DNA of 64,000 nt. It comes from Halichondria panicea (Eukaryota > Porifera > Demospongiae > Suberitida > Halichondriidae). This document shows, piece by piece, positions 2,303-39,536 of the stretch. The stretch covers positions 5,340,071 through 5,404,070 of the forward strand of contig NC_087380.1 in assembly GCF_963675165.1 (NCBI RefSeq), given 5' to 3'. Position 1 is the first letter of the stretch, and every line of letters starts with the position of its first letter. A program made the translations under genes and the position numbers. The notes beneath the pieces are model-generated. The model saw only the letters and a list, made by a program, of their open reading frames with translations. It had not been told where the DNA came from and ran no database searches.

Positions 2303-5300
2303 ATGGCAACAAGAGGTAATTGAAGCATAACTACTAGTCTATCAATGTTCCACATGCAGGAGCATGATTATAAAGCATTGATATTATGTTATGGAAAGCC
2401 TATATTATTTTATTGAAACTCCACGACTGTATATACGTACATAAGTCAAGTATATGAAATCGTGTATAATTATGGATGTATTTTTAATCTCCCTTATAGT
2501 TTATGTGGTGTTGTAATTAAATGATACATACATGTAACCCAATAATGCCATGCATGCAGGCCAGTACAACAACCAATATTCTCATGTACAAGCTAGCAAC
2601 TATCCACTGGCACCAGGACCAACCAGGTCTAGATCTAGCCCACAATATGGACATGGATATGGATATCAACCATTGCACGGACACCCACAAGAACAAGGTG
2701 AACTACATAGTTACCCTCACCTCATAAAACGTTTCTAGCATTTATTATACTATGCATCTTCACTAACCCTACTAATTTAATAGAGTGAAAATGAAAGTAC
2801 CCTTTACAAGCAGTGAACACCGCTACCTACTCACATTAAGTACATTTACAAGCATTTAAGTAAGCTTTACAAGCTGTGAAAAGGGTACTTTATAAAGATG
2901 TGAAAAGGGTACTTTATAAAGATGTGAGTAGCATTTATATGCGTTTAAGTACCCTTTCAAGCAGTGAAAACGTTACTCACATCTTGAAAGGACCCTTTAC
3001 AAGCATTTAAGTACCAAGCATGCACTGCATGGCACTAGTTGGATATAGCCAAAAAGTAAACCGCGGTAGGGTTAGCCACACTTCACTAAATGATTATACT
3101 GCTCATTTTGTTAGTGACGTGAAGTGGCCATCATGCAATAATTACAAGCCAAAACATAAAACATGGCTATAAGCCTATGGTTTATAATCGTTGTGCAGTT
3201 ATAGGGATAGTGATGTGGCGCACACATGCAAACACAAGTGTTTATTCATTCTGCCAAAGCCAAACAGAAATTGTTGAGGTTCCATGATTATCTCCAGATA
3301 GCAGACCACTAATTTTATCAGCTACTACAAATCACAAAACCTCCAAACAACATCTATTAAAGTTCCCATGCAATACGTATCAAGAAGTATTGCTAAACAC
3401 GGGCAAACCCACTGCCAATCCTATGTAAAACCTACTGGTTTTACTGGTTTTACTAATATAGTGTGAAAGTTTTGAGGCACTTATATTTCGTGGAATGGCC
3501 TCTTGCACGTTTTAGCAGATAATTCTAATAATTTTTGTGTAGGAATGCTAACCGACGAAAACAGCGAAAATTAAACCCCCTCGAAAATTCTGCGCTATAC
3601 TGTACATACCAATAGACCACAGTCCCACAGTATGCGGAGTATACAATGTAATTACACTGAAGGAAAAACAACAGCCTTAATCGGCTCAGTATAAAAACAA
3701 AAAGCACTTGTAACCCTCAGCGCTATAGTAGCTATAATATTATAGTAGGAAAAGAGCTTGCACACAGTGACTGTTGCACAATCGTTTTAATGCATGGAAT
3801 ATCTACACATGAAAACATAATTGCATGCTCTCCGATGCATTCTGCCTTTTACAAATGTCACTAGAGCACCTGCTGCTTTCAACAAGGCAGAGCTCGTTTT
3901 GTGTGCAGTGTCACTGTGTATATATAGTAAGTAGTATGCATGGGTATCATCTTGTATGAGTAGCTGCTCAGCGGAAAAGTAGTGTGGGCTGAAAGCCTGC
4001 TATAGGTCTGGCTTTCACAGTCACATCCTTACTTCCCTTCACGAAGGCTGCATGGTTGGAAATATACCGTATAGCCGGTAATTTTCAGGGGACAAATATT
4101 TATGACCACGAATATTTTACCCACAAATGAAGCAACCTTGACTACCTTTACCTGCAGTGCAAGCAGCAACCATGAACCACGAATATTTTGTTTCCGAAAA
4201 TTGCCGGCTATACGGTATATTTCCAGCCAATGCAGCCCACAAACACATTCCAAAACAGCAGGGGTTGACAGCCATGAGAGGGCAAGCTTTACCTGGCATA
4301 GTATAATTATAACACTTGTATATTCTGCAAGGATTTATGGCAACTAATATTTTCGAGGTTTTCGAGGATTGACCGAGAAACATGAAAATTTAGTGCCCTG
4401 AAAATTAACCAGTATTGAACCCTCTCTACTGTAGGGGTGTGGTCATTTGAACCTCTATCCTCGAGAATTTTTCTCGAATTGTTTAGTTTGGGCAATCTGC
4501 AAAAATTTAGTGCCTTGAATAACTCGCTATACGGTATAATACTTATCAATTATTAAACGTATTGTCAATATGCAGACTACTCTGAGACGAGTATGGCTTA
4601 TGGTCAAGCTAGGGAAAACAACGCCCACACGTATGCTAATCATCACACACCAGTTGCACCACAACCAAAGCCTAGGACAAAACTTTCACAAGGTATCACA
4701 TTTATACATTCATACATTACTTTATATCCAAGTATATAGAAGGAAGAAACATGACTGAGGGTGTGTCATACAATACGCATAATTTTGGACAACAGGCTCC
4801 AATCCAGAGTGCCCAAGATCAACGGACAAACCAAGGTATGGCACCGTTTATTATAGCACACCCTATTGCTTGCGAAGTAATAATTATACAGGCTTAAGAC
4901 TGCACTTAATACACCTCACATACTATTGTATAGTGCAAGAAATTTATATATAATATACATGCAGTGGAACCCCTCTATAACGGACACCTTTGGGGAACAA
5001 TGTTTTGGCCTTTATACAGAGGTGGCCTTTGTTGAGAGGTTGTTTTGTACACAAACTGTTCATTTGGGACCTGCATGGGTGCCTGGCCGTTATAATTATA
5101 GCAGCTGGCCTTTATTCGAAGGTGGTTGTTAACCGAGGTTCCACTGTATAGTTATATATATATAGACACTGTTTCGGAGGTGCATATGTCTATGGGATTT
5201 AGAAGCCCAAAGGCACTGCTTTAGTATAATTATAGCGTGTAGCGAGGGTACAAATTCCTGAGGCAGAGGGCTTCTAAATCAATCACGACAAAATCTGACA

Positions 5301-7959
5301 AAACCCCGACAAAACAGTGTCTAAATACTGAGTCTAGTGTGCATGCGCAAACCATGCCCTCAAGGTTTAATTGACTATACAATACAACAACTTGACAACG
5401 GGTAAGTTGCAGATATACAAGTCTCACAGTAATGTATATACCTCGTCTGAGGCACTTTTCCCATGTGTATTTACTAGTGTCTAACTCATGCAAGGCGGCT
5501 ACCTTGTCGCATACATTTGTATCCCACAATAATTTAATTTGGCTTTTATTTGAGGCCTGTATACAATTCCCATTGAAATTGCGGCGTTTAATTGAGTAAA
5601 TCGCATAACGTTTTCTTAGCCATAAAATTGGCCAAAACGCAATATGCTCACATATATTTTTAGCTTTACTGTATCATACATAATTATCTATGCATAGGAC
5701 CACTTGACCAGACAGCAGTGCTAGAGACTTTAAGTGGGCAAGACACAAAGCTGGAGAAAAACAATACAGGAGAGATTACATACAGTGAAGGTATGTATAT
5801 ATACATACGCGTATACGTATATGAAAGCCTTGCGCAGAGTGTACTTAAGTACAATTTTGAGAAGGAGAGTATAGACACTTGCTAGAGAGAAGAGAGTAAG
5901 ATCTGCATGGATATAAAATGTATACAACTATGGATACGTATAGATCTACATTATTGGTCAGAATCAGCCTCTCCAGAAACAGGGTACACACGGTGCAAGG
6001 TTATTCTAATGATTGGCACATAAGAAAGGGTTTGTGTATTCAGATAAGTTTATGAACAGTGTAAAACTTCACCGTGAGACCAGAAGTGGTCCATGCAGAG
6101 AGTCTTGTATTGATGTATATACTAGAGTTTAGATAGAAGCGCTAGGGGTAGAAAAGTAGCTAGCTGGAGACCTATTGTATATATATATAATGATTGTTTT
6201 GTAAATTAAGAAGCATAGTTGAATAACAGTCGTGTAGAGCTTACTGTGGGATGAGAAGTCATTCAGAGAGTCTTGTACTGATCGATGTAGAGTACTTGTA
6301 CTGAATTTAGAGCGAACTGCTGGAGTGGAGAACAAGTTTTGAACCATTTATCGACTATTCGCCACTACCACTATATTTACCACTACCACTATAATTATAT
6401 CACCACTGCAACTAACAGCTATAATACTGTATCGCATCTCAGAAATGCATATGCCATGCTCAGGAATGCGAAATTGGGTGTAGCTACATTCGGTTAATCT
6501 TTATTACCTCTACTATTTGTATAATTCCGAGCGAAGCGAGCCTATATAAATTCAATCGAGATCAATCGTGATGGTAGTCTCGCGCCAAAAACGCACCCGT
6601 ATGATTATTCTATGCACAATATAGAACTCAGACCAGAGTCACATGGATCCCGAATCGAAAGAACTGACCATGCCCCCGTAATTGAAAATCCTAAACCAGG
6701 TATACACATCATTACTTGGTATAATTATACCATCTATTTTCAATACACATGCAGGAAACGACAGCAGAGATGACCAAACCAAAGAGGCTGCTGACGTTAT
6801 ACAAGGCCAAAAACCAAAAATCGTAAGACTCATGATTATATTGGCTGTTAGCAGGAGCACATATATACGCTTATAATCGAGTAAGCGCTATATAATAATC
6901 CAGTTTCTACTGTATGGGGGGGATAGCAGTAAGGATGCTCCTGCTATTAGGTATACCCATATATCCAAGAACTCAGGTCACACTGAGCTTTTACGCCCAA
7001 AAGTTGTCTTTAGCAGTCTTTGGATAAATATGCATATACACCACCAGTATTTAAGTAGCTAGTGTGTCTCATGTACATTGATGACAATTGAAGGTGCAGA
7101 TGTATAGGGCCAGAGGCCACACATAACTTAGTTCACTATAAGCCCATGTACCCACCCATGCACATACATATAGCACACACAATTGCTGACTCTAGCTGTG
7201 GAGCCCAGGGAGATGATAACTGAAAACAGAAGCTACCACAACGAAATCAGTGGGATCGAAGCAATAAAAAGGCTTAAGGTTTTCCGAAATTGCTGCTACC
7301 TCACACGCTACAGTGAAATTCAGAAGTGTTACATACTTTCTGTATGCATGAGCGATGAAGACTTGCAAAACGAAATTTATAAGCATTTTGAGCTGAAAGT
7401 TTCTGATGAGGGAATACGAATTCTAGAACACAGACCATTTGCAAATTTAGTGGAATTGCTTACGCATTACGAAAATAACAGACTCGGCTCAGCCTTCCCA
7501 ACAATTGGAAAATGCATTACCCTAAATGCCTACAGGGAAAGAGTCAGAGAGAAACATAAGAGGCAACCACAACAAGTACACCTACAGCTACATCAAGAAC
7601 AACAAGCTCAACCACAACAACAAACGCAACAAGCACCAATACAAGCACAACAACAAGCTCGGCTACAACGAGCACAAATACAAGCACAAATTCGAGAACA
7701 TCAAGTACAAATACAAGAACAACAAACGCAACTACAAAAAGTGCTACAACAACAATTACAAGCCCAAAAAGATTCACTACAACAAGCACAAATACAAACA
7801 CAAGTACAAGAACAACAAGTTGAAATAAAACAACAACAGGGTCACCTACATGAACAACAAAATCAACTGCAAGAAACAGTTCAGCAACAACAAGCACAAT
7901 TACAACAACAAGCGCAGCAAATACAAGCACTACAACAACGCAAATGTAAAATATTTTAG
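2303..7959 (+). CDS. SH2-domain protein with Q-rich tail and C-terminal CaaX box (gene A)
   Basis: Predicted exons are 2303-2315, 2560-2697, 4576-4692, 4740-4835, 5698-5790, 6625-6699, 6755-6822 and about 7204-7959, giving 451 residues. The first six introns are phase 1 and the last is phase 0; the last acceptor (GAG|CCC) is the least certain border. Residues 1-200 are low-complexity and rich in Tyr, Gln, Asn and Pro (NNQYSHVQ, VAPQPKPRTK). An SH2 domain spans roughly residues 210-305: SYHNEISG, then YLTRYSE with the phosphotyrosine-binding Arg, then CYILSV and KHFELKV. It is followed by about 130 residues of Gln-rich likely coiled coil, and the protein ends in CKIF, a CaaX prenylation signal. 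The likely role is a membrane-tethered phosphotyrosine adaptor; no kinase or other catalytic domain is visible. Genes B and C are paralogues with the same exon plan. Confidence 0.8.
2770..3020. repeat. Degenerate direct and inverted repeats in intron 2 of gene A
   Basis: Units such as GTGAAAAGGGTACTTTATAA occur in tandem near 2876-2923, and AAGTACCCTTT / AAGGGTACTT motifs recur in both orientations. No coding function is apparent. Confidence 0.6.
4047..4235. mobile_element. Small inverted-repeat element (MITE) in intron 2 of gene A
   Basis: Arms at 4058-4086 and 4196-4224 pair over 29 bp with one mismatch (core ATACCGTATAGCCGG), and the similarity continues outward to about 4047 and 4235. 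The motif ACCGTATA recurs at the ends of the elements at 31192-31909 and 38365-38584 and in decayed copies near 4545 and 8910, so a family is present. Confidence 0.75.
4962..5146. mobile_element. Short Tc1/mariner-pogo-like MITE in intron 4 of gene A
   Basis: The ends CAGTGGAACCCCTCTATAAC and its imperfect complement ...CCGAGGTTCCACTG resemble the CAGTGGAACC-type ends common in pogo/Tigger-like elements. It is about 185 bp with no coding capacity. TA target bases are plausible on the right (TATA follows) but not clear on the left. Confidence 0.55.
5164..5322. mobile_element. Small MITE with nested inverted repeats
   Basis: The outer ends are AGACACTGTTT and AAACAGTGTCT; inside them lie GATTTAGAAGCCC and GGGCTTCTAAATC. 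The inner part recurs at 60171-60248 within an intron of the KDZ transposase gene. Confidence 0.65.
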
Positions 7960-8996
7960 CTTGAGACAGTACATATACTATTATGCCCCAGTGCACATGT
8001 GCTTTTGTGTGCGTGCATGTGTAGTTATAACTATATTTGCATATGAAATTTGCCACTTTGGAGGTCTAATTGTCACCTACATAATTATTTTGGAGGATAA
8101 TAAATGGAATGCCTGCATGCATGTATGGAGGGTTATGCTGGAGCTATTATCAGTCTACCACCACTATGAAACTGGCCCTTTATGACAGGAGAATAAAGTT
8201 AAGATGCCGCTGCTCTCGGTTGAGTAATGCACTTGCTATGTTTGTGCATTACGTAACCTCGAGGCACTATTACATCATCCTTGTGCACCATGCACATTAA
8301 ACGCTATATAATTATAGTTGTGATAAAAAAATAGAATTATCCGCAAGATAATACATAAATCTACTAGCAATAATTATATAGACAGACGCATGTGCACTCT
8401 GAGTGCATGACTATGTCCGCTAGAACTGTATTAATGCAGATTTGTGAGCACTAGACGATAATTGCTCTTTAGATATATTTTTTGTAATCCAGCAAAACTA
8501 TAAGATCGCAAAATACGTACCTAAAATAACAGCAGCACTCTTACAGTAGGCTAACAGACAGGCACCCATGTTCAAGTCATAATTATACTGAAGGCTTGCT
8601 TGTGTTTTGAGAGTATAGCTTCTCGGAATAAGATTGGAGTGCAGCTGCATGGGTATAGTATAAAACAAATTCAAGATTTGTAAAAACGAGACTATATAAT
8701 AATTATTATATAGTTATATAGTGGTCACATGCAAGAAATTTCCTTGGTACGAAATCTTTCAAATAGTTATGTACAAATGCAGTATTGCATGAGCTGCCAT
8801 AGATTCACAGTATGTCTCTGTGTAAACACCAGACTTATTCCAGAGGCCAGGTAACTCTGAAGTTATAATCTATAGGCTCGCACAAAGTCATTCCAAACGG
8901 CTATATAGCTACCGTATAGCTTTTAATTTTTTTCTGCTGTTTTCAAAGAACCCTCGAATGCACGAAAATTAGGTCTACGTATATAAAAGGTCTCAC
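7960..8996. other. Intergenic, downstream flank of gene A
   Basis: No gene is recognised. The stretch about 8430-8640 (GAGCACTAGACGATAATTGC ... GCTAACAGACAGGCACCCATG) is homologous to the flank of gene B (about 12715-12930) and of the broken copy (about 30605-30850), so the duplicated unit included downstream DNA. Confidence 0.6.
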
Positions 8997-9173
8997 CTTA
9001 GGAAGAGTCCAATGTACAACGGTATATATATATAATTATACCAACTGAAAGGCAACTTTCCAACAGGAATGTTATCAGATGCTCCACCCACTCCACCGAC
9101 CCCCCAGACTCTGGGGCAAGGCTACGGAACTCAGCATCTATGGGTGCAGGAGATAGTTTTTCATTAGGTTCAT
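8997..9173 (-). CDS. Possible exon of an unrecognised minus-strand gene downstream of gene A
   Basis: Read on the minus strand, the exon would start after TATTTCAG and end before the donor GTGAGA. The open frame reads DEPNEKLSPAPIDAEF and continues with SGGSVEWVEHL. A homologous stretch with the same acceptor and donor lies at 30978-31131 beside the broken SH2 copy. Conservation of the splice borders in both copies suggests a real exon, but no function is recognised and the upstream exons were not found. Confidence 0.35.
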
Positions 9174-10606: not shown

Positions 10607-10658
10607 GAAAATCCATGCAGTCAAAGAAAAGCAGTTGAATGTGTTCATAAACATTAAG

Positions 10659-12693
10659 ATGGCAACGGAAGGTAAGTGAGGTACAATGTAAGCATTATCT
10701 ACTGATAATAAAGGTACAGAGAGCCTAAGAATTGGAGCGTGAAGCTACATAAATAAAGCTAATTATCATGTGTTTACATATACATGCATGCAGTACCACC
10801 TCAGTTTGTTAAATCAAGTCATGACAGTAAGACATGCATGTTATACTCAGAGTACAACCAATGTAGCCCGACAAACCAGCACCTTACTACAGCAGCGACT
10901 TCTCAACAGCACTAACAACCAGCCCACAACAGTCACTGTATGGAAACCTATCACCATCAATTAGCCAAGGTAAACTTTGCTATAACGGTAGTCAGCTCAA
11001 TTCATAATTGATGCAGTAATGAGTATGTATACAGAATAATATATACTAATGACTATATAGACAGCATAAATATTCATACGTAACTGTATAGTACAATCAT
11101 ATATTTTATGTGTGCATGTATTATATACGCAGGTCAGTACAACAACCAATATTCTGAGGGACCAGCTCATAATTACAGCATCAGCTACCTACCAGAAACA
11201 ACTGAATCTAGCGGAGAACATCAGTATGTAAACTTTCCACAAAGTCTTCCATATCAAGGTCAATTTAGTCAATCATTACTATAGTTATAGTTACATGTAT
11301 ATGTACTTGGCCACAAGCAAATATATAGTGACAACAACAATCTTCAAAGACGTACTTGCAACAAACAACACTCAAGCTAATTGTCTTTCTTATAATTATA
11401 TATGCAGTGAATACACATCATGATCCAGCTAGGGGAAACAACACCCAAGGCCAATGGACAAATGAAGGTATGGACAGTTTATTAGCTACACCGTATTGAT
11501 TGACTCATAATGTCATATCCTCGCATATATAAACTGTACACAATCATACCCATGCAATATCTATATAATAATAGGACCACCCAACCAGCCTATTACTAAA
11601 GCTGACAGTGAGCCTTTCAATGGGCAAGGTACAGAGGTGGCAACTAACCATACAGGAAAGAGTACCCACAGTGAAGGTGACAAAACAAGTGGAAAAAAAA
11701 GACTGTGTACATGTACGTTTTATCCACGATTGCATGCACCAGAATTCAGAACAGAAACACATGAAATCAGCAAAAAAAACTGACCCTGACCCAGAGATTG
11801 AAAATCCTAAACCAGGTACTTTCATATATACTTATCATGATCAAGCAATACAAAACAATTTATACACAATGTCATGCAGCAAATAACAAAGAAGGGGAGG
11901 GCGAAACTGCTCGAGCTCTACAAGACCAACGACCAAATATCGTACGTTTAACCATAATTATACTACTTAAAAATGTTATGTATACTCCAAAGAGTTGCTA
12001 TAGAGTGAACACAATAAAAATGTATGCTCTACCATTAGTTACTTGCAGTAGTGCATGAATGTGATAAAACAATAGCCATCTATACATAGCGACAAAATTT
12101 GTTGCTGCTATGACACCATACATAAAACCTGAAACCATGCGTACATTATTACCTGAAACAATGCATGCGCACATAATAATGTACGCATAGTTTCAGGTTC
12201 ATGTTATGATATACTACATGTATAGCACACAGAAATACTGACTCTAGCTGAGGAGCCAGAAGAGGAGATAACTCAACACAGAAGTTACCACAATGAAATC
12301 AGTGGGGAGGAGGCCAAGAAAAGGCTCAGAGTTTTCAGCGATCACCACTACCTCACTCGCTACAGTGAAAATTGGAAGTTTTACGTACTTTCTGTGTATA
12401 TGAGCGATGAAGATTTAGAAACCGAGAAGTTTAAGCATTATAAGCTGAAGGTTTCTGGCGAAGGAATAAGAATTCTAGACCACAAACTGTTTGAAAGCTT
12501 GGAGATAATGCTCAAGTACTACGAAAACAACAGGCTTGATCCAGCCTTCCCAAGAATTGGAGTTTGCCTCACTGAGGAGGACTACAAGATAAGAGTCAGA
12601 GAGATACGTGATCGACAACCGAATCCTGACCCAGCCCCACACATTGAGGAACCGCAAGCACAACAGCCCAACATCAAATGTACAATAATATAG
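10659..12693 (+). CDS. SH2-domain protein with C-terminal CaaX box (gene B, one apparent frameshift)
   Basis: Predicted exons: 10659-10671, 10880-10969, 11133-11258, 11408-11467, 11575-11676, 11743-11815, 11880-11941 and about 12256-12693. All fit the phases of gene A except exon 6, which is 73 nt where the paralogues have a multiple of three. A run of eight A at 11772-11779 puts the frame one base out; with seven A the exon would read on into EIENPKPG as in gene A. As given, the protein stops at TGA just after the run; if that is an assembly error it would have about 320 residues. The N-terminal exons carry NNQYSEG and other Tyr-rich tracts. The SH2 domain has YLTRYSE, YVLSV and KHYKLKV. The Q-rich region of A and C is absent, and the end is CTII, a CaaX motif. 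Confidence 0.7.
12127..12198. repeat. Hairpin in intron 7 of gene B
   Basis: Arms 12127-12151 and 12174-12198 (core ATGCGTACATTATTA) pair almost perfectly over 25 bp around a 22-nt loop that contains another copy of ACCTGAAACA. Possibly a small foldback element; no clear target duplication. Confidence 0.6.
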
Positions 12694-15942: not shown

Positions 15943-18900
15943 ATGTGTGAGTGTGACTCAAAGACCAAAGAGCAAGAGCTATGGAGGCTACGGCTAAACT
16001 GGGCATTCATTATCTTCATGGCTCCCATGTATTCAATCAGTATGTATGGTATTATTTCATCCTTTCATCAATTCGTGACCAACCCAACTGAAGTTGAGAT
16101 TCTGTCACAAAACAACACTAAACAGAAGGTATTGAATTGTCTTACAATAGTCTCATGAATGAAATGAATCATAATGATGCTCGTAAAGCAGCTTCGTGTG
16201 CACATTTCTCTCAGTGTGCATATTGAATAATAACCCTGTATAATTATCTCAATGCAGATTGAGCCAGGCCTCGGAGAATCTGAATTATTTTACTCCTTGT
16301 TAATTTCAGCTACCAATGTTGGTGCTATCATTGGTGGGCTAGTGTGTGGATTTCTTGTGGGGATTGTTCCCTACTGGTATTTGTGGGCAGTGTCACTAGT
16401 GGCACACACAATTAGCTATGTTATGTACTGTGTTGTACATCAAGGTTGGCTGATGATGATTTCCAGGCTTCTTGCTGGGTATTTCGCAGGTGCTACTCTT
16501 ACACTCGGCTTCAGCTACTTCACTGACACCAGTGTTTTGTACGTTGAAAAACTAACGGGTGCCAAAACAGAATCAGAGCGAGTTAGAAACTATCTGTTTG
16601 CTACTTTTAGTTTTTCAATGAACCTGGGATTCCTTTTAGGACCAGGTAAGCGATTTGTGTTAGCTGGTTTTAAAGTCCATAATGTTTGTGCAGGTTTTGC
16701 AGTAATTGTGGCACAGTTTGAGTCAGTGGATCAGTTCAGGGCGATTGGATGGTTCAACGTTGCCTATGGTGTAGTTGTTTTGTGTGTATTGGTGATATTG
16801 TTTCGGGGAGAAATGAGTTTCAAAACTGACAGAAGATTGAGTTATTGTCAAGCTAAGAAACAGAATTCTAGCTGTCGATTGCAAAATATGAGTCTACTGT
16901 CACTTTTCATATCCTTTCGAATACGTTATATTAGAGCATGTATACCTCATTATGAAGTTTCTTAACTACGTCTATACATAATAATTTCATTTCTTTTCTT
17001 ATTTATATTGGAAAGGATCCGAGCGGCCTTTATTGGAACTGTATTCAACCCCATTGCCAGTGATTCGTTCGGAATTGATGAGAGTGGTGCCTCGTACTTT
17101 GTCTTAGTTCTCTCTATTCCTCTACTAGGAGGATCAATTTCATTGTGAGTCAGTGTATATAATTATTTCTGCATGTCTGTTCACTGCATGTCTTTAATCC
17201 CCATCATCCCATTTCCTTTCTTTAGACTTGTTTTCCAAAGACTAAAGATGTCGAGCCAGATGATTGTCCTGACAGGCATCATTACTACAATGTGTGGATA
17301 TTTAATTGTGACTGATTGGCAGACGATTCCCTACGATCCGTGCACAGAGTACAGTCCCTTTCATCATCCTGAAATTGTCCAATATTATGAAAATAACACA
17401 ATTATTGTAGGCAGGTTTCAAGCTGAATCACATCTTGATTTCACTTTGCCCAAGCTGAAAGGAGTCAAGCTTTTGTCCAACATTAACCTCATATTTGCTG
17501 ATGGTACATTTTTTGAGTCAGACTTAAGGATTAACCTCAGTTGCAGTCATGTTGACAATTGTACGTGTGCTCTAAAGAATCCTGCCTGTTTGCATTTCAA
17601 AATTGATGAAAATCTAAACATTCTACTGGCTACAAGCCCCGAGGATGTATATTATTACGACTGTAGTTTTAACTTCAACCTGAGATCACCAATCACAGCA
17701 TGTATTACTCTATCAAGACATCAAACAGCACTGGTAGGTAATAGAGCAACGGCCCCTGTTTCAAAACAAGAAGCTGAAATTGAAAGCATCAATGTACTGC
17801 CAAAAAGAGTATACTTCGTAGCTCGAAACAGCTGTATTGAGGCGAATGTGACTGGTCACCAGTGTCACTGGATACCCTCGTCCACAATCACCAAGAAGGA
17901 GTGTAAAGACTGTCAGCCCATCTGTAGGAGCGTGAGCCAGACACTCACTTTCACTCAGTTTCTGGTTGGCAATGGACTGTTGGTTTACACCAGTGCACTC
18001 CAGTATTCTCCGATCGTATCATTACTCATGAACCAAACACCAAAACAAATCCAGGTGCATGCTGTTAGCTATAGTAATAATAATTATGTTTAGTGCATAA
18101 TTATAGTGTTCTATTAATGAATGTGGATCTAGATCTATATACGCATGCACACATTCACGCATTCACGCATTGTGAATTCTTGAATAGTATATATGAGTTG
18201 CGGCTTACCCTCTTTTCTTTATCATCCTTTGGTTATAGCAGCTATTATAACTACGAATACTAGCCAATTAAGGTACCTCTTGACCAATCTTATAATTTCA
18301 TGCATGCATTGTTGCATATAACCTATATATACCGTTCTGTTCTTCATGCACTAACAATGGCTACATGTACATGTCTTGAATACGTAATTTTAATGCAGGG
18401 AATAGTGATTGGATCCATGACGGCTGTGGGCGGTGTATCATCAAGTGTGTCTCCTTTACTGAGTAAGTTATGAAGACTTAAGGTGCATGCGTGGAAACTG
18501 CACGAAAACAAATACCTCTTATTAACATTACATACATGCTAGAGGCGAAAAAATATGAGTATATAATATAGATTATTATTATTATTATACAGGGTTCTAC
18601 ATTGCAAGTGACGTAATCAATCATTGGAATACTACTTAACGATATTGTTTGGCATAAATTTACAGCTTATGAAGCATCTCCCATGCATGCATGCATGGAT
18701 GCACTCAGTCTCGTGTAGAACTTCATCATTATCCTTGAAAAACGATTCATTAAGCAAGCAGAATTGGATGTCTTATTTTGCTGTTGCAGACAACTGTTTG
18801 TTTAAAGCAATCAGCTCAGCTTCTAAATTATTAACGTAAGGTGTATTGAGTGTAGTTGCTCTCTCTTAGCTCGCTTAGATTTCCCCTTAGTCCTGTTGAT

Positions 18901-23966: not shown

Positions 23967-26502
23967 ATGGGTCTTTCAATTGCAAAGTTAGTAATAAAAG
24001 CTGAGTCAGATTCTAGAAGTAGCTTAGAAACAAGCAGTGTGTCTAAGGAAGGTAGCAATTTCAAGGCAAGTATTACCACAAACGATTCAAAGTCAGAGAT
24101 TCCAAGAGCAACCAATACAAGTTCTGACAGAGAGGCTCATACTGAGAGACAGCTACTGAAAGTTGGTGAGAGCAAACAGATCAGCATAGCACAAAGAATC
24201 CCTCAAGGAGAACAAGTGTTGGTCCATCCTATCAATGTAGGACAAGGAGATGCAATACTACTGGAGATACAGAGTCAAAATGGTAAGTGATTACAAGGCA
24301 ACTAGTGTTCCAAATTCATTAATGATAAAGCATAAAAATAAAGAGCTGATAGATACCGGTAACAACAGCAGAGTAACAGTACACATTTATTTTATTCACG
24401 ATCATGAAGAGTTCCTCCAGTCAGCTATAGCACACACAAAAGAATGATAAATGTATTAATTATATGCTGTTCCCAGGCCAGAGTGAGAAACACCTTACGG
24501 ATGGTGGCCAGGGACAAAGAACACAGAACACACAATACTACCAGAATCTCAAAGACACTCTCAGGGCTCGTGGATGCTTAGTACAGAAGAACCGTACTGA
24601 AATTGGTAATACGTTAGAAGATCGAATTTGTGAACAAGTTACAATGGACTCCATTGTCATCACACACCCCAATCTAGATCATTACGGTGGCATTAACCGA
24701 CTGCTACAAGACTTCACTATCACGGCTCCCATTACAACAACTCTGGCAAGCTGTTTAAAAGTTGGGCATTCTGGTGGCCCAAAAGACACGAAAATAGGTG
24801 AAGTGTTTTTGTCTGGTGAAAGAGACCAAATTAGGCACTGGTTCCCGTTAACTGGAGAAGGAGAGAATGGTAGACGACATACAAACATCAAAACACTACC
24901 CAAAGGTTCGACGGTAGAAGTAGCCAGGAACGAAGACCTAACATTTGATGCAAAACAACTCAATGCAACAAGTATTTTGACAACTGTAAGAATACCGGGG
25001 AGCAAATACGATTTTGATGTGGTGTTGAGCGGAGATTCATACGGTTATGTCATCGATGAAAAACTAGGATTAAAAGACAAATCTGTGGGAGTGTTCCAAG
25101 TGCCTCATCATGGAAGCAAGTATAACCTACGCAGACCTAGGGCATCCACAGTCACGGATTTCACACATTTTTACTCGAGCTTTAATGCACACATCTACTT
25201 AATCAGTCACGGCGACCACAGAGGCTACAATCATCCGCATAGTGAAGTTATCACAGGCATTCTCTCTGCAGCTGTCCAGAAAAAAAGACGTTGTAAGATA
25301 GTAGTCACGGCAACATGGTTTGAAGCATCTAAAATTGATGAAAAGAATATTAGCAACTGGAGGGACTATGTTGATATCTTCTACTTCAAGCAAGGCACTC
25401 CATACGTCACTCTGGATCCTAACGATGAGAATTTGCCTAAGGGCTTACAGCTGTTTGTCAAAAAGGTACACCTAATCAAGATAATAAATATGACTACACA
25501 GTTAATATTACTATTTATACAGGTGCCAGCTCAAAGTCTAGAAGACAAACTTGGAGAAAAGAATTTGCAGAGGAGGGAGGTTAGTCGTGACGGAAACAGC
25601 TTCTTCAATGCCGTCAGTGGAGCACTAACAAACAAGAACACACCCATCCAGTTGAGAGAGAAGCTTGTCGAACACTTAATGGGATTGCAAGGTTTATACT
25701 ATCCAAGATCAGGAGTGACTACAATGGAGGAATATTATGAGATCGTAAGTAATTATCTATTGGATGGACACTTCTCGTCTGATATTGAAAAGATTCTGCC
25801 CGAGGCAATGGCACGGACACTAAATATTCGAATACAAGTTATCTCTGCGAATCCTGAACAAAAGGACAAGTTTTATGGTGTCGAATCCACCCAGACTGTT
25901 ATTCAGTTAATACATGATAAGACAGGCAATGGTCACTATGACTACGCCTTTCCAGCCACATCCCAAGGGCTTTCCATGAATACTTCAGATTTGCCACCTG
26001 TCAAGGCTGAGCAGACTCCTATCAAGATCAGAGAAACTCCACCCTCACAAGCCATGACAAACGGAAGAGCTAGCAGACGTCTCCTCTTCCCAAATGACAG
26101 GTGAGACAAAACTAAAACAGTTTTACCAATTAAAATTATGATTTTTTATATTAATACCCTTATAGTGTAAACCAAAACAAGAGCCCACTCAACAAAGTTT
26201 GTCACTTCTGCAAGCAACCAGCAAATCCCATTGACAGATTGTACATATGTAAGAACTCTAAATGTCCAGTCAAAACACACTTGAATTGTGAAGAGGAGTC
26301 AAGAAAAACACACACTTTTGTGAGAAACTTCAAGAAATGCGTATATTGCCGGACTTGCAAAGAATGCAACGGAATAATGGGAACAGTACATGCTTCGTGT
26401 CATATTTGTGGGGGTGCTGGCCACGTCCCTTGTATTAGAAGAGTGCCCGAACAAACAAGAGATGGATACACATGTAGGATATGTAGAGGACAAAGCTTGT
26501 AG
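23967..26502 (+). CDS. ComEC-type metallo-beta-lactamase + OTU-like + PHD-like protein
   Basis: Exons 23967-24282, 24477-25465, 25523-26100 and 26166-26502 give 739 residues in a continuous frame. Residues 1-85 are Ser/Thr-rich and probably disordered. A metallo-beta-lactamase fold of the ComEC/Rec2 type follows: VHPINVGQGDAILLE, LTDGGQG, THPNLDHYGG (H and DH metal ligands), VLSGDSYG and VPHHGSKY, all key residues present. Next is an OTU-like domain, SRDGNSFFNAVSGAL to NGHYDYAFP: where active OTU proteases have DGNC the sequence has DGNS (AGC), so the catalytic Cys is replaced by Ser while the His region remains. The last exon is a Cys-rich PHD-like zinc-binding tail (CHFC...CKNSKC...CVYCRTCKEC...CHIC...CRIC). 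The intron 25466-25522 is 57 nt and open in frame, so its retention would add 19 residues. It could act on nucleic acids or phosphodiesters and read chromatin, but no function is known to me. A decayed paralogue lies at 47231-49605. Confidence 0.75.
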
Positions 26503-29202: not shown

Positions 29203-30432
29203 TTGATCTACTCAAACTTTATGATGACTTCGTGAGTGCTGTATATTGGGGTACATCTCAGGTCTAGAATCAAAGGAGGTTGGACGCGCGTCATCCACCG
29301 TCAGGTTTTATCACGTGCGCTCATAAGATTAGGCACCATTAGGCACCTCGATGCTCCACTGTTTTGTAGGCTGTACAGAGACACTGCAAGTAGCCAGAAG
29401 TGGTCAAGGAGCATTCCCACCGCCCTCTCACCTTCCCTACACTGCTGAAAAGATTCCAAGATGGATCTAGACTAGTATTTATATATTTTTTGACACTTTT
29501 CCAATTTTTGTTTAACAGGATTGTGATGTGTATGAGCAGAGGAGGTCAGAGCACCATTGATCTGTTTCTCTTTAGCGTTCCTAGCTCTTACTTGCACTGA
29601 TAAGCTTTTACATTCTCACCTTTGACCTCAAAGGAATTCTATAAAGGTTTATAATTATCACATGACTGAAGGCGTCATGATGATGCGTGTCCAACCCAGA
29701 GGAGGTACGCCAATGTCAAAAGGTCACTAATTAAAACATCATGTGGGCTTATGTTTTACATGTAAAACTGAGTTCACCCTCGCGCCCCAGGCTTTATACA
29801 ACACCACTAGCTTCATCCTTTTCATAATCATAGCAGAAATCAGTTGAACTATTGCGCCTCAGACGAAACAGCTTGAGAGAAGAGATCTCAGATTTATTTA
29901 CAACCTTTGACCTTTGATTGCATTCTTCGAAACCACAAGATATGGAAAATTAGCCTTCTGTAGCTAGGGTATAAATTTTGATGTACTGGTTTGCTGCACT
30001 GGATAGAACTAGGTATAGCAAGCTTTCCAAGCAAGCAAATAAACGGTCAAGAGCAACAGAAACGGTAGCTGCTATAATCCCAGCAAAGGTCAAGAACCCA
30101 GGACAAGATGATTAATGTTTCATTAAAAAAGTGACCCTGTTGACCCTTGCTTACCTCCCCTGTGTCCAACCTCCTCTGGTCTAGAATGTAATAGAGCAAG
30201 CTTCAAATTTTCTTTTGGCATCCTTATATTAGAACAAATTGCTACTAAATGAACTTGGTGACCTTGTAAAGATCATCAATTTTACATTGTAAAAACACCC
30301 ACACAGCCACAAAAATGGGATCCAGTGGCTTGTGAAAACTAATCAAGTTAAATTCCTTAGGCCTTACTGTAAAAAGGACTATTAAATCGGCATTTACCAG
30401 TACAGTCCCATTGAAATCGAGGTGATTACTGT
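29203..30432. other. Intergenic with the second arm of the inverted repeat
   Basis: No gene is recognised. 30187-30320 is the inverted counterpart of 26855-26985. Copies of TCCAACCTCCTCTGGTCT or its complement occur near 19825, 29278, 29688 and 30165, marking another dispersed repeat. The homology to the SH2 family begins at about 30433. Confidence 0.5.
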
Positions 30433-30590
30433 TACGAAAAAAACAGGCTGGACCCAGCATTCCCAACAATTTGAAAATGTATATTAAACTGAGGACGACT
30501 ATATACAAGGCAAGAGTCAAAGAGATACAAGCCAAAAGAATACAAGCCAAAGGAATACGCGAGCAACCATACAGATGCACAATAATGTAG
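30433..30590 (+). pseudogene. Truncated SH2-CaaX gene copy (last-exon tail only)
   Basis: The remnant begins in the last helix of the SH2 domain (YEKNRLDPAFPTI), is broken by TGA where the paralogues have Gly (GKC/GVC) and by a frameshift, and then reads DYIQARVKEIQAK...GIREQPYRCTIM-stop. The intact paralogues have DYKIRVREIRDRQ and the like. It keeps a CaaX-like end, CTIM. Upstream exons are missing and the sequence before 30430 is unrelated. Its downstream flank (30605-30850) still matches those of genes A and B. Confidence 0.75.
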
Positions 30591-31131: not shown

Positions 31132-31191
31132 CTGAAAGGGAGACATAAATTGTGTACATACAAACAAGGAGAAGAGGGCATTGCAAATCAC

Positions 31192-31909: not shown

Positions 31910-33330
31910 TGTGTGCTCCAGTAATAGCATTCAAATTGTCAATATTATAGGCCTTATAGTTAGTTTCAATAATATGTATTAGTTATTGCCCAGCACGAGT
32001 GCAACATGCCATATATTGCACTGGATGACATAATGCCCTCGGGCCGCACATTCAGCTCTAATTGGCCGATCATTAAGTATATATTGGCTTCAGCTCATGT
32101 ATACAGTAACGAAATCATTATCATCGCTCTTGAAACTTGTATGTATACTTGTCTCAAGCTTTTTCCACACAAAACATGGTTGAATCTAAATTGTCTTTTA
32201 GACTATGACACTGACATGCTATAGGCACAATTGTTGTATGGACAATACTATTGTAGAGTATGTCGCTTAACAGGGACAATAGAAACAACGATATAGTTTT
32301 AATCGACTCGAAATTTCAGAAGGCAATTCTTTAATAGGAGAGCTCTACATAATTCACCCTTATCATTCCCGTTCAGGTACGAGGATTTGAAAGTTGACGT
32401 GGTCTCAAATGTAGAAAAGATGCTTGAATTTATAAGGTTTCCCTATGATCTTATGCTCAGGACGGTGATATTCGGTCATAAAACATTATAAGTATGCTTA
32501 ATTTATCTCAAGGCTGCAATAGTATTCAGGACAACACAGAGATTTTAAGGGTACGACAAGCGGACTAGATCCAGCTCCTGTCACGCTGCACTAACAAAGT
32601 CAGTGAATCTTTTCTAACGCTGAATCGGTGTACAGTTAGAGAGAAGCTACGTACGTATATTCAATTGTGTGAACATAATAATTATGAATAATAATAATTA
32701 TTGTCCTTGTCTATAATAGTACTAACAAATATGCCTGTGCATGTCAACCATATTGTGTGGAAACAAAACTTGAGACAAGTGCATACTAAATTAAGAACAA
32801 TGTTAAACTTAATTGGTACTGTACATGTCCTACGTTTGTGTACCGTAAGACGTGCGTTTGTCATGCAGGAATTCCTTGTTGATGATCAAAAATGTAAAAA
32901 GTCAACCCCCACGTTCACAATTGTCAATGTGTGTATGTATAACAGTATAACAGTTCCAGCAAAGGCACGATAGCAAAACCACAATTAAAGCTATCAACTA
33001 TATGAATATCATTATGCTAGTGAACAGTTCAATAGTTATAAAGTAGGCACATAATAATTTGAATGCATTCGTAAATACTTAAAGTCACGCAAGCACTGTG
33101 GCCATCACATGTTGATAGTTAGAGCTAAATCTGTGATTTCTGTTATATGCACACAACAACTTTTATGCATGCAGATAATTATCATTGTTAAGAGTATTAT
33201 AATACCGAGGCTATAAACGGTATGGTACGTACAAAGCAGAATACATTCACGTGCTGCAATGAAATATTCATGACTAGCTACACCTATATATAATTATGTG
33301 TCACGCCTTGCCTGGGAAACATTCCTAATG
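31910..33330. other. Intergenic upstream of gene C
   Basis: No gene is recognised. The last part (about 33040-33300) is duplicated inside gene C at 37315-37560. Confidence 0.5.
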
Positions 33331-33356
33331 TTCATTGGCAGTATAGCAAGGGGCAG
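33331..33356 (+). promoter_or_regulatory. Conserved upstream block of gene C
   Basis: TTCATTGGCA...TATAGCAAGGGGC corresponds to 10581-10606 upstream of gene B at a similar distance from the ATG. It contains an inverted CCAAT motif (ATTGG). Confidence 0.4.
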
Positions 33357-33397
33357 ATAATTTATAGCCGAAAGAAAGCTGCAGTGTACAATAGAAG

Positions 33398-36300
33398 ATG
33401 GCAACAGGTACTCGATTAAATATCTATTACTGTGTACGACATAAAAGTATGGAATTGATGTAGAGATTAGAACTGACGTTATTATACAAAGTAGCTAGAT
33501 GATATTGTGCAACTTATATAATACATATTACGTATAATCACAACTATATAATTATAATACTGTTGTGTGCATAATTATATTAATATGCAGGTCAGTACAA
33601 TATTCGATTTTCCGACGAACAAGCCCGTAATAGTAGCTACAATAGCAGCTACCCAACAGCCAGGCCTAACCCAAATGGAAATCAGTACAGAAACTTTTCA
33701 GTGCCATTAAGCCAAGGTGAAATTTGTCAAACTTATTTTCACGTGCATGTGCATGCAGTGACTGTGGTAATTTTTATGAAATTCCCAAAGGTATATATAT
33801 ATGCTGGTGCTTGTATGCATGTGTTTCAGAATCCAAGAACGTTTTAGGTTACGATTTATAGGGACACATCAGCAAAAACGTGCAGTGCAAACAGCTATGT
33901 ATCGGCAGGAGCACATGAGCATCTAACTGTGCATGGGTTCAGAAATCACATCTCGTGTCTTTTCTTAAACACCGCATTAATTGTCTTATAAGAAAAGTGT
34001 GTGAGTACTGTGTACATAAATTACAGACTGCGGTCAGCCTGTGAATATCATTATAAACAGATTTGTATGTAGTGCAGCAGCAGGAGAGCTAGATTGAGCT
34101 AGAAAGAGCTAAAATGAATATCTAGGTCTTTGATGGATGTTGGTATACATCATGGAAGAGGCTGTCATTGGTGAGGTACAGAAAATTCTAAAAGAGGAAT
34201 TACTTTGTAAAGAGAAAGTTTGCTAGACCTAGACTAACACATAGATCTACTAGGCATTTTGTTTTTGCAGTAGGGAGTCTTACGTACTGGGGTTCTTAGA
34301 AGAGAGAGCTTACTACCAGCTATATAACTAGCTAGCTGTAGCTTTTTTACCTAGGCTTGGTAAAAGTGTCAGCTCAATTAGGACTCGCCCACAGATGATG
34401 ATCACCCACTTAGCGGTTTGGCATATAAGGTCATGCTTTGCAAACTTGCACGAGATGCGATTCCTGAGGTAAGACGCTCCTTCTGTCATGTGCTCCTGGT
34501 ATCGGTGAAGGCTTTTCGGGCTCAAACAGTAGTGTGTAAGGTATATACAGGGGCGAATGCAATATACCGTTACGTAATGACTATATATAGCTGCATGCTG
34601 TTTCAGCAATGCAACTATAATGAATAGCACAATAGTCTACTATACACATTCATAATATCTGAAGCAGGCCTAACAACTTCATGCATGCACTTAATGAATT
34701 CAATGTACAGATCAGTACAACCACCCATTTCCCGGCATACAACCATCAAACTACAGCTGCAGCTACGCAACAGCATCAACTAGCCCAAGTGGGAATAAGC
34801 CAGTGTACAAAAACTATTCAGTACCCCAATGCCAAGGTGAAATACAAATTGATTGTGTAGAAATTTAGTAGCCTCATCATTATGCTGATTTTTCAACGCT
34901 ATAATTATATACAATTATAGGTAGAAATACTGATATAGGCCTGGAGCCTGGATAGATTGTATCTGGGCCTGTCGTAAATTGTATTGTAAAACACTCCTTA
35001 TAAATGTCTAGATCTAGTACTTAAATGAAAATACAGAAAAATGAAATGACACAGAAAGATAATAACATCTAAGTATATATCTCAGTATGATACGTAGCAC
35101 AGAGAGTCTAAACCCGAGTAGCTAACCACAAAAATCCTCATACAAGAGTTTGACAACAGCATGTTTGGACTTGATGCTCATTAAAGTGAGGCCTTCTGTC
35201 AATGCAGTGCATATATAAATGTTTCATCTGGTCACAGCTAGCTATACTATATAGCTTTCGCCAAGAGATAATTTTAACAGATCTAGACTTACATATTTTT
35301 GAGATAACGGCAGTTTTACAGAGTAAATGTACACGTGTGCATAATTATAATTAATTTAGTCATTGGAATTTGCTAAAAGAATGAATTTCAACCATGCATG
35401 CCTATAGATAAAATCTATTCCAGGCCTACTTTTCCACATATAATTAATTTTATGTAGCTATAATTAATAATATTACACAAACATCACTCACTATATTCAA
35501 AGGAAATGTGGTATCTTTACCCTACTTATTTGACTCGTTCTATAGAACTAACATTAATAAGACTATATGATTCTGTATAAATACTGTACTGTACCTGTTC
35601 GTGTTTAGTGGTTCCTTTTCATTTCCAATAGCCTCTTTGGTTGCATAGGGAACTGGACATGGGAATATGCATGACACTGTAATTATGATCATACAAGCTC
35701 GAGCAACGCCCAAGTGACAAAGGCAGTGCCAAACACAATGTATAATATTTATAACACAATGTATAATATTTATAGGCCAACAGGCTCCAAACCAGACAAC
35801 ACAAGGTCGATGGATAAACGAAGGTAAGTATACACTTTTGTAATAATAATAATAATAGGTCATATAATAATTATTGCTAAACAGTACTATTTTGACTCAC
35901 AGACATTTACATGTTTAATAGATCACTTTAAACTGCATGCAATTGCTTATACATCACCATGCACGCATATACACCCATGTCTTAAAGGACTACCCAGCCA
36001 GGGTATTCCTGGGACCGAGCCTTTTCTTGTGCAAGACAATTATTTGGAGAACAACCATACAGGAGAGCATAGCATGTACAGTGAAGGTATATGTAATTAA
36101 ATTGACTTATCCCATCTGACATAAATTATCACATACTAGAATGCCGACCAGATTCTGTATCACATGAAATTGAGGGAATTGACCATGAACAACAGCTAAA
36201 ACCAGGTTATACTTATATAGTGCTGATCAATGCATTTTTACTGCTACACACTTGTTTCTTTGTGAGGGTTGTAAAGTGCTTAGTCAGCAATATTCTAGCT

Positions 36301-39300
36301 ATAAGCGCTAATATTAGCGCTTATAACCCATAGGCGCATTATTGCTACCAGTACTATTTTGAATCACAGACACTTACGTATCACTTTAAACTGCAATTGC
36401 TTATACATCACCATGCACGCATATACCCATGTTTTAAAGGACTACCTAGCCAGGGTATTCCTTGGACCGAGCCTTTCCTTGAGCAAGACAATTATTTGGA
36501 GAACAACCATACAGGAGAGCATAGCATGCACAGTGAAGGTATACATAATTAAATTAACTTATCCCATCTGACATATCACATACTAGAATGCCGACCAGAT
36601 TCTGTATCACATGAAATTGAAATTGAGGGAATTGACCATGAACAACAGCTAAAACCAGGTTATACTTAGTGCTGATCAATGCATTTTTTACTGCTACACA
36701 CTTGTTTCTTTGTGAGGGTTGTAAAGTGCTTAATCAGCAATATTCTAGCTATAAGCGCTAATATTAGCGCTTATAACCCATAGGCGCTAATATTAGCGCT
36801 TAATAGCTAAAATATTGCTGACTAAGCACTTTACAACCCTCACAAAGAAACAAGTGTAGCTCCGCTTTGCAGGGTCGCCTGATTCTGCATGGGAATTGCT
36901 CCATTCTGTACTGCACTCTATCTAGATTGTACTCAGCTTGTGTCCGTTAGCTCTAGCTGTGTAGTTTGGCAAAAACGGGGATCGGTGCGTTCTGACGAAA
37001 ATCGAAACATTCGGTAGTTTTTTCAAGTTATCACTGCTCGGACTGGAAGCGACTTGGCCTATCCAAGTTTTCGCTGGATAATAGGCCCATGGCCATCTGT
37101 TAGTGTGTGTAATTATAGTTTGAATCAGTCTTGTTTTGTTTGTGCGTTACACGCCCTTTTACCTGACGCACTTTGATGTCTGACGGAGTTCGGCAACTTA
37201 CTCTATTCTAGTACGCTCATGCAGTGTTAATAGCTCTGTCCCTTAATTGGTGAATGCCAATTAGTGGTGCAGTATTCTAATGCTTCATTTAGCATAGTCA
37301 ATATTGTAAAGTATAGGCACAAATAATTTTAGCGCATTTGTAAAGACCTTTAAGTTACACATGCACTGTGGCCATCACATGTTGTTTTTTGTGCACCCAA
37401 TAGTTAGAGCTATCATAAATCTGTTACACACAATGACAATGTTATATTGTTTGGCAAAACACTGAGAATAAACGGTATGATATGTATCGTGAAAAGCAGC
37501 ATACATTCACGTGCTGCAATGAACATTCATGACTGGCTACACCTATTATCATTGTGTTGTATATAAATGCACTTCATGTGAACAGACTAAGATCTGACAA
37601 AAGTGGAGAGCACACCTCCAAGAATACCTGCAATCAGAAGGTATAAAGCATGAACGAACAATTCCAAAAACCCCGCAACAAAACGGTGTTGCCGAACGTT
37701 TAAACTGAACACTTATCGAAATGGTACGAACTATCAGAAGAAAATAGCTGTACAACAAACCTACGCAGCTCTGTCTCTAGCTAGCTAGCTATATAGCTCT
37801 TTGTATGACTTTTAGGATATTTTCTCTGATGAATTCTGTATTATAGGAAGAAAAAGTATCCAATAATTTGGCGCAGCGCAAGCAGTCGATAGCAGGCCTT
37901 CTTTTCTATGAAGGCCGATGAAGGAGGCTAACACTTCGCATGCTCTATGAAAATCTGTTCCAATTATACCCGGACAATTTCCAAAATAATTATTTTTTGC
38001 TGTCTGATAAATTAGAAGATATACGGTATCACTTTAAACTGCAATTGCTTACATCACCATGTACGCATATACCCATGTTTTAAAGGACTACCTAGCCAGG
38101 GTATTCCTTGGACCGAGCCTTTCCTTCAGCAAGACAATTATTTGGAGAGTTACCATACAGGAGAGCATAGTATGCACAGTGAAGGTATAAATAATTAAAT
38201 TGACATTAATTTTAATATCCCATATGACATATGACATACTATAGAATGCCGCCCAGATTCTGTATCACATGAAATTGAAAGCCATGAACAACAGCTAAAA
38301 TCAGGTTATATTTAGTGCTGATCAATGCTATTTGTTGCAAGTTTGAGCAACCACACTACCAGTATACCGTATTACTAGAATATTTTGCGGGTGAAAACCT
38401 TTGCGAATGAGCCAAATCAGTAGAAAATTTAACCCTTTGCGATCTAACTATTGCGTTCTGACAAGGATCGTGTGTATTTACTACATGTAGTAATAATTTA
38501 GGTTTTGCGGATTTATTGTTGCAACCATCGCAAAGTTCGCAAATTAATGTTAGATGCTCGCAAAAACATTCTAGTAATATGGTAAAGTCATACCATGCAT
38601 GGGCGCACATAAACACACGGCATTATCTTTAAAGATTAACAACATCAATAACTGCTTGTGACACTCATTGACAAGTAATAACGAAAATTTGCGCACTATG
38701 TAAAATATTTAAACAGTACATGGTATGCGACAATTGCATTACTATTCTCTACACAGGAGACTACAAAGAAAGAGAGGGCCACTCTGACCTGCCTGCTCTA
38801 CAACAGGATCCTACAATTGTATGCATTACTCCTTAACCGTACATAAACCTGAATGAAAGCCAAGTAGTAAACCTTGCTACTTTTACCTTACTGCTATACC
38901 CTGTTGTAATATTATAAAGCTGATACCAAACTCCTGCAGTTTTCCCTAAAGCTGGCTATAATTGTGGAGCCCAGAGAGATGATAACTAAACACAGAAGTT
39001 ACCACAATGAAATCTGTGGGAAGGAGGCAGTAAAAAGGCTCAGGGTTTTCGGCGATCACCACTACCTTACACGCTTCAGTGAAAATCGAAAGTGTTACAT
39101 ACTTTCTGTGTGCACCAGCGATGAAGACTTACAATTTGAAAAGATAAAGCATTTTCAACTGAAACTTTCTGATCAGGGAATCAAAATTCAAGAAAAGAAA
39201 CAATTTGAAGACTTAGAAGAAATGCTTAAATACTATGAAACCAGCAGGCTCGACACAGCCTTCCCAAGAATTGGAGATTGTCTCACTGAGGATGACTACC

Positions 39301-39536
39301 GAGCAAGAGTCAGAGAGATACGTGAGCAGCAAGTACAACAACAACAAGTACAAGAACAAGAACAACGACAACAACAAGCACAGCTGCGGCAAAAAAAACG
39401 GCAACAACAAGAAAAACGGCAACAACGACAACAACATGAAGAAAAACAAGAGCAGATAATGGCGCAACTACTACAAACACTACAACAGCAACAAAAAGTG
39501 AATGATAAGCCCAAAACCGAATGCACAATAATATAG
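33398..39536 (+). CDS. SH2-domain protein with Q-rich tail and CaaX box (gene C)
   Basis: Predicted exons: 33398-33407, 33591-33716, 34711-34836, 35776-35823, 35988-36086, 36140-36205, 36440-36538, 36587-36658, 38086-38184, 38245-38304, 38757-38818 and about 38970-39536 (an alternative start of the last exon is 38952, same frame). Every length fits phase-1 joins, and the total is 477 residues without a break. Two N-terminal exons are duplicates of each other (QYNIRFSDEQ / QYNHPFPGIQ). Then the pair of exons encoding GLPSQGIP...YLENNHTGEHSM and ECRPDSVSHEIE is present three times. The SH2 domain (SYHNEICG, YLTRFSE with the binding Arg, CYILSV, KHFQLKL) lies at about residues 300-395, followed by a Gln/Lys/Arg-rich coiled-coil-like segment and the CaaX end CTII. 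Likely a prenylated phosphotyrosine adaptor like gene A. Confidence 0.8.
36694..36859. repeat. 166-bp near-perfect palindrome in an intron of gene C
   Basis: Arms of about 80 nt (CTACACACTTGTTTCTTTGT... and its complement ending GTGTAG) meet at a centre made of repeated GCGCTAATATTAGCGC palindromes. The left arm is also present, without the right one, at about 36245-36345 in the previous duplicated unit, so the palindrome arose by an inverted duplication after the exon-pair duplication. Confidence 0.8.
37315..37560 (+). repeat. Second copy of the gene C 5' flank
   Basis: Homologous to about 33050-33300, including CACTGTGGCCATCACATGTTG and CATTCACGTGCTGCAATGAA. The segment is internal to gene C (intron before the third exon pair), so part of the promoter flank has been copied into the gene. 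Confidence 0.7.
37585..37745 (+). pseudogene. Ty1/copia integrase fragment
   Basis: Two frames give LRSDKSGEHTS and then EYLQSEGIKHERTIPKTPQQ followed by NGVAERLN-stop-TLIEMV. This is the C-terminal part of a copia-type integrase core (the D...QQNG.AER.N..L motif). One frameshift and a TGA at the Arg position of ERLNR make it inactive. No LTRs are seen nearby. Confidence 0.8.
37780..37931. mobile_element. Truncated TAGCC-family end
   Basis: An inverted, diverged copy of the left part of the element at 22073-22667 (GCGCAAGCAGTCGATAGCAGGCC ... GAAGGAGGCTA). The other end is missing. Confidence 0.7.
38365..38584. mobile_element. MITE with ACCGTATTACTAGAAT ends in an intron of gene C
   Basis: Left end ACCGTATTACTAGAATATTT and right end ATTCTAGTAATATGGT pair imperfectly; internal TTTGCGAA / TTCGCAAA motifs also alternate in orientation. 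It is about 220 bp and non-coding. Confidence 0.7.

Follow-up and report, generated by a model that had tools for sequence, protein, structure and literature searches.

SH2 proteins reach membranes through N-terminal lipids, transmembrane partners or lipid-binding domains, and we know of no natural SH2 family with a prenyl anchor at its C terminus. Does the sponge Halichondria panicea possess one? The question is raised by a 64,000-nucleotide stretch of its 131 Mb genome (contig NC_087380.1, here C4, positions 5340071-5404070; this whole stretch is referred to as the window), where a first-pass annotation had described three genes and one remnant that place a CaaX prenylation box as the last four residues after an SH2 domain. 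Having followed these genes and their relatives across the genome, we consider it probable that they form an animal SH2 adaptor family with a C-terminal prenyl group as its membrane anchor. On the best reading of the sequences the family would be lineage-restricted; at least five of its members bear tyrosines in their N-terminal part. SH2 domains and valid CaaX boxes are each known; it is their combination that is the unusual part.

Gene models were chained by GT-AG borders and reading frame, and are predictions from genomic DNA. The three models, designated genes A, B and C (Table 1), all start with MAT- and none has an internal stop. Each carries an SH2 domain with the YLTR[YF]SE signature, which exceeds the curated cut-off of the Pfam profile PF00017 (21 bits) and is followed by a tail ranging from short (gene B) to long and Gln-rich (gene A); the stop codon comes directly after the CaaX box (CKIF at 7959, CTII at 12693 and CTII at 39536). 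The SH2-then-CaaX layout described for the three window genes was thus borne out. Since the Tyr exon of gene C is doubled (33591-33716 and 34711-34836) and an exon pair is present in three tandem copies (35988-36205, 36440-36658 and 38086-38304), the exact splice form of this gene is uncertain; the repeated exons have weak GTTATA donors. The triplication of the exon pair recently expanded the N-terminal region from within, and a tyrosine, within NYLEN or NYLES, is found in each of the three copies (35988-38304).

Table 1. SH2-CaaX genes and fragment in the window (positions counted from the first base of the window)
Feature	Position	Strand	Description
Gene A	2303-7959	+	8 exons, 461 aa predicted, in-frame GT-AG chain; ends CKIF
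Gene A exons	2303-2315, 2560-2697, 4576-4692, 4740-4835, 5698-5790, 6625-6699, 6755-6822, 7174-7959	+	
Gene A last exon	7174-7959	+	SH2 (YLTRYSE), Gln-rich heptad-like tail, CKIF, stop; PF00017 30.6 bits
Gene B	10659-12693	+	7 exons, 298 aa predicted; ends CTII
Gene B exons	10659-10671, 11133-11258, 11408-11467, 11575-11676, 11750-11815, 11880-11941, 12226-12693	+	
Gene B exon 2	11133-11258	+	Tyr sites including YVNF (Y-x-N type)
Gene B last exon	12226-12693	+	SH2 (YLTRYSE), short tail, CTII, stop; PF00017 32.1 bits
CTIM fragment	30432-30590	+	Decayed 3' fragment of SH2-CaaX last exon; follows a short frame; ends CTIM, stop (30576-30590)
Gene C	33398-39536	+	12 predicted exons, 487 aa predicted; ends CTII
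Gene C exon 2	33591-33716	+	YRNF site
Gene C exon 3	34711-34836	+	Related to exon 2; YKNY site
Gene C last exon	38940-39536	+	SH2 (YLTRFSE), Gln/Arg-rich tail, CTII, stop; PF00017 35.5 bits (38910-39533)

The remaining case, ending in CTIM, did not stand as a fourth member. Its alignment is confined to the final portion of the SH2 exon (72 of 96 positions identical to gene B), eight of the 96 positions are gaps that break the frame, and the region holds no LTRYS segment. Being a frameshifted end of an SH2 exon without the LTRYS part, it gives the claim about the CaaX box no support.

The reading gains support from the family beyond these three genes. A protein search of the whole genome returned 11 SH2 exon matches at E 2.8e-13 or better, the next match being at E 0.24, and three separate queries, two of them from distant members, recovered the identical 11 exons. 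All 11 rows obtained with the first distant member belong to the family; with the second it was 11 of 17 rows, the rest being four stop-broken rows on contig C2 (two places) and two weak rows on C7. C4 carries seven members, C2 three and C6 one, and all the last exons are open. Ten of the 11 end in C-x-[IVF]-[LIMF], with six different strings: CTII (L001, L002, L005 and L006), CTIL (L003 and L004), CKIF (L007, which is gene A), CVVL (L008), CVFM (L010) and CLIL (L011); the remaining member, L009, ends in EMSL. The SH2 profile cut-off is passed by 10 members in the genome-wide listing and by L007, which that listing misses, when the window exons are tested, so that this listing is a lower bound. 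The pocket Arg (FLVR position, YLTR; R45) is present in 10 of 11 members, L011 having YLTC, and the His H71 in all. Three distant members share 33-35% identity with gene B. In a tree of the SH2 domains the seven C4 genes share one side of a branch, with support (87/90) below the tool's own mark. No relatives were found in bacterial and archaeal contigs, where 88 pattern matches gave none confirmed by tblastn. The genome also gives matches to the Wnt family, which indicate an animal. Compared with the first-pass proposal of a prenyl-anchored SH2 adaptor, the family has therefore grown by eight members, seven of them CaaX-ending with three distant ones included, while it has lost the remnant and includes one member without the terminal Cys (L009) and one without the SH2 Arg (L011).

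Some further observations concern individual loci. L011 (C6:1736742) combines a Cys in place of the SH2 Arg with an intact CLIL end and has a second Cys (CPKC) upstream of it. Decayed SH2-family matches with stops lie near L010 (C2:2187181-2187439 and C2:2153883-2154095). Two near-identical SH2 genes about 25 kb apart, L012 and L013 (C7, at 109 kb and 84 kb), stand outside the SH2-CaaX family.

As a control, the genome's 61 SH2 places outside the family, minus the weakest, were each read to the first in-frame stop. Of these 60, four ran through the stretch without a stop; the other 56 include some split domains counted as two halves and some genes that are almost identical. A Cys at position -4 occurs in one (L033, CAHG, outside the CaaX pattern) and a CaaX-type end in none of the 56. 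The corresponding Fisher test for Cys at -4, family versus control, gives p 4.8e-10, a value that is descriptive only, as the family rows are related. It should also be noted that in 15 of the 56 controls the stop does not lie beyond the matched stretch; because many stops are intronic, the control describes open frames rather than proved C termini, and its number overstates its weight.

The composition of the C terminus itself is informative. When the 11 members are aligned at the stop, Cys occupies -4 in 10, X is hydrophobic in all 11 and a2 in 10. The a1 column takes T, K, V, L or M, a2 among the CaaX members is I, V or F, and X is L, I, F or M; the columns from -7 to -12 hold five to nine different residues each. 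In the family alignment the Cys (C152) and the pocket Arg R45 fall in columns that hardly vary, and the Cys codon is either TGT or TGC. A fixed Cys, a free a1, hydrophobic a2 and X, and variable residues before the Cys make up the pattern expected of a prenylation box. The same pattern bears on the possibility that the C terminus is a ligand of PDZ domains and not a prenylation box, since CTII and CTIL conform to [ST]-x-hydrophobic, and CVVL, CVFM and CLIL to hydrophobic-x-hydrophobic. Assigned by eye to the classes as generally known, six of the 11 ends fit class I and four more class II, including EMSL of L009, which without its Cys would still fit. However, p-2, the key position for PDZ class, is the variable one (T, K, V, L or M), CKIF fits neither class, and the Cys at p-3, for which PDZ ligands have no need, is fixed in 10 of 11 members. 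As it is the Cys and not p-2 that is kept, we regard the PDZ explanation as weakened and improbable.

A prenyl-anchored adaptor has to be weighed against several contrary observations, which concern the age of the copies, the loss of the Cys in one of them, the ends of the transcripts and the N-terminal tyrosines. With regard to age, the final codons of the C4 genes read TGY ACA ATA NTA in six of seven; these copies are not independent witnesses, because their last codons are nearly identical DNA. The linker in front varies by CAA-type repeats, which can grow quickly. Such features are what would be seen if the C terminus were an idle inheritance from one CaaX-ending ancestor, too little time having elapsed for its loss, and the proteins were soluble. 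Outside C4 the situation differs: dS (silent divergence, NG86) between the C4 genes and L008, L010 or L011 is 1.28 or more, or not computable, and these lineages, near or past silent saturation, have nonetheless kept the Cys with different a1, a2 and X, while the residues adjacent to the box have not been kept. Varied CaaX strings at such distances argue for upkeep of the box, not inertia, and an idle box is in our view improbable, to the same degree as the PDZ ligand. Because a dS of 0.26 places L010 and L011 near one another, about three deep lineages can be counted. The ratio of replacement to silent divergence (dN/dS) in the SH2 domain is 0.17-0.63, below 1 in every pair with computable dS. 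The earlier argument that the Cys must be selected because the linkers differ therefore holds strongly between the C4, L008 and L010/L011 lineages, whereas within C4, where the last codons are near-identical and the linker varies by repeats, it is weak.

The member without the Cys, L009 (C2:1898595), has kept its SH2 Arg, so that the joint retention of SH2 domain and CaaX box, checked within this genome, extends to 10 of 11 members and not to all. Its SH2 dN/dS is raised (0.63 against L010 and 0.46 against L011, other closest pairs having 0.17-0.38). By eye, a likeness to the L010 coding tail persists in the DNA past its stop, and no CaaX end was found in the three frames of the 300 bases after the stop; together these points suggest truncation, and L009 looks like a shortened copy.

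Transcript ends raise the question whether splicing bypasses the CaaX end of the exon in some or most transcripts, leaving mature proteins that are not prenylated. Donor-like hexamers follow the SH2 domain in five of 11 members: a TAC/GTGAGC site near the beginning of the tail is common to L003, L004 and L005, AGA/GTGAGA is shared by L009 and L010, and the stop of L010 overlaps a GTAAGT hexamer, so that CVFM might be spliced past. In gene C 212 bases separate the TAC/GTGAGC site from the stop that follows. The gene models themselves use loose donors, and AATAAA or ATTAAA is absent within 400 bases after the stop in eight of 11 members. Nevertheless, the donor patterns searched for occur in none of the other six members, among them genes A and B of the window, and the family as a whole has no donor-like site in common; a bypass that removes the anchor is very unlikely. 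Least likely of all is that the family consists largely of non-functional decoys or dying copies of one SH2 gene, as the decayed fragment in the window, the truncated L009 with its raised dN/dS, the lost SH2 Arg of L011 and the decayed C2 matches near L010 might indicate, but which is at odds with the low dN/dS of the other closest pairs, the open last exons of all members and the three intact full gene models.

The N-terminal regions had been described as Tyr-rich, which they are only moderately, with 11 Tyr among 200 residues in gene A, six among 143 in gene B and 15 among 289 in gene C (nine, six and nine, respectively, within the first 90 residues). Among the seven C4 genes, five (A, B, C, L003 and L004) were found to have Tyr-bearing N-terminal exons. 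They were not recognised for six of the 11 members, upstream searches having given repeats or weak matches: L002 matches in a MATEG start exon and in later exons, with no Tyr exon found, L006 matches in a single exon, and no N-terminal exons were recognised upstream of the C2 and C6 members. Seven of the eight located copies of the Tyr exon contain Y-[RVKTE]-N-[FY] with a varying middle residue, three of these seven being codon-identical at the site, and exon 2 of gene A lacks it. Y-x-N is a docking motif of the Grb2 type; it was seen six times against 2.4 expected, a modest excess (138 of 5000 shuffles). An exon that appeared Grb2-like by eye proved to match SHP2 better (4.7e-20 versus 2e-17 for GRB2); with this one exon tested, no Grb2 gene could be confirmed.

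For the tail of gene A, the heptad power was reached by 32 of 2000 shuffles (133 residues tested), hinting that this tail may be coiled-coil-like. AlphaFold gave the three window proteins a mean predicted local distance difference test score (pLDDT) of 45.7; the order of helix, strands and helix fits an SH2 domain, in what is a weak model built from three sequences. By profile search the nearest solved relative is the C-terminal SH2 domain of SHP2 (PTPN11; 2.2e-14), with SHP1 (7e-8) and then TXK, VAV2, Fyn and Src (near 1e-6) farther away. Unlike SHP2 and the Src family, the gene models have no phosphatase or kinase domain and do have a C-terminal CaaX box. In the alignment with Fyn, the first Trp is replaced by Ser and the Arg of the following helix by Gly.

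Known CaaX proteins include Ras and Rho GTPases, G-gamma and INPP5E; the present family shares with them CaaX boxes of the L/I/M/F type and has an SH2 domain in place of the GTPase or phosphatase. Lys or Arg before the Cys, found in some known CaaX proteins, likewise occurs in L003, L004 and L007. That a CaaX box can stand in for the recruitment step that brings a signalling protein to the membrane is known from SOS-CaaX, an engineered fusion; there the combination is a laboratory construct, whereas the SH2-CaaX genes are natural. LAT, FRS2 and SLAP combine a membrane anchor with tyrosines or, in SLAP, with an SH2 domain; their anchors are a transmembrane helix or palmitate/myristate, and LAT and FRS2 have no SH2 domain. 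The likeness of the sponge proteins to these three would lie in a proposed membrane anchor joined to tyrosines or an SH2 domain, and the difference in a putative C-terminal prenyl group. Among the titles and abstract openings listed in searches of open-access papers on SH2 together with CaaX or prenylation, none describes a natural SH2-CaaX protein; the term SH2 is absent from the main text of a paper on human and viral CaaX sequences (PMC11152559), and a Legionella review mentions SH2 effectors and CaaX effectors in separate passages (PMC7542358).

The genome has matches to components of a prenylation pathway: prenyltransferase-beta repeat matches, which may stand for farnesyltransferase (FTase) or geranylgeranyltransferase type I (GGTase-I), were found on three contigs, along with one ICMT match and one Rce1-like protease match. 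None of the ten CaaX strings has a restrictive a2. According to excerpts of one specificity study (PMC10320760), X = L, F, M or I makes GGTase-I more likely, a1 is permissive and Asp, Glu, Lys or Arg at a2 are restrictive; the same excerpts list CVFM, which is the least usual string of the family, as prenylated with 100% gel shift in the yeast Ydj1 reporter. Acceptance of CaaL, CaaI and CaaM by GGTase-I is likewise stated in part of the paper on human and viral sequences (PMC11152559).

We propose that GGTase-I mainly, given that X is L, I, F or M, or else FTase, would add a lipid, mainly geranylgeranyl, to the Cys at -4, and that Rce1 and ICMT would finish the processing, bringing the protein to the inner (cytosolic) face of a membrane. 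The SH2 domain could then dock onto phosphotyrosines in receptors close by or in adjacent copies of the protein, and the protein's own N-terminal tyrosines, several of the Y-x-N type, might be phosphorylated and recruit further SH2 proteins. The net effect would be a membrane docking hub in which a C-terminal anchor takes the place of an N-terminal myristate or transmembrane helix. A more far-reaching version is offered tentatively, as we find it possible but somewhat doubtful: a membrane signalling hub of the lineage's own, in which a tandemly expanded, prenyl-anchored SH2 protein would supply phosphotyrosine docking sites itself and have a tail that self-associates, its copies differing in lipid (farnesyl or geranylgeranyl, depending on X) and hence in membrane address. 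Such a hub would be the C-terminal counterpart of what LAT/FRS2-type adaptors and myristoylated Src-family proteins do N-terminally.

Other features of the window are mentioned for completeness. Before gene A, two inverted copies of about 80-90 bases (by eye, at about 240-330 and 1236-1328) look like the ends of a mobile element of about 1.1 kb. Open frames at 16234-18093 (+) resemble exons of a membrane transporter; 16234-16962 matches MFS_1 at E 8.6e-05, below the cut-off, and no MFS_1 match was obtained on 17149-18090. A frame of 557 codons (24431-26104, +) has, by eye, metallo-beta-lactamase-like (THPNLDHYGG) and OTU-like (DGNSFFNAV) stretches, with no Pfam family at E <= 0.001. The Cys-rich frame at 26155-26499 (+) gives two weak C1-domain matches below the cut-off.

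Within the family, L011, which lost the SH2 Arg and kept the CaaX box, could show whether the anchor is of use in the absence of phosphotyrosine binding. Taken as a whole, the unusual pairing of an SH2 domain with a C-terminal lipid-anchor signal suggests a home-grown type of membrane signalling adaptor and, if this is confirmed, an animal lineage would have wired phosphotyrosine reading to the prenylation pathway.

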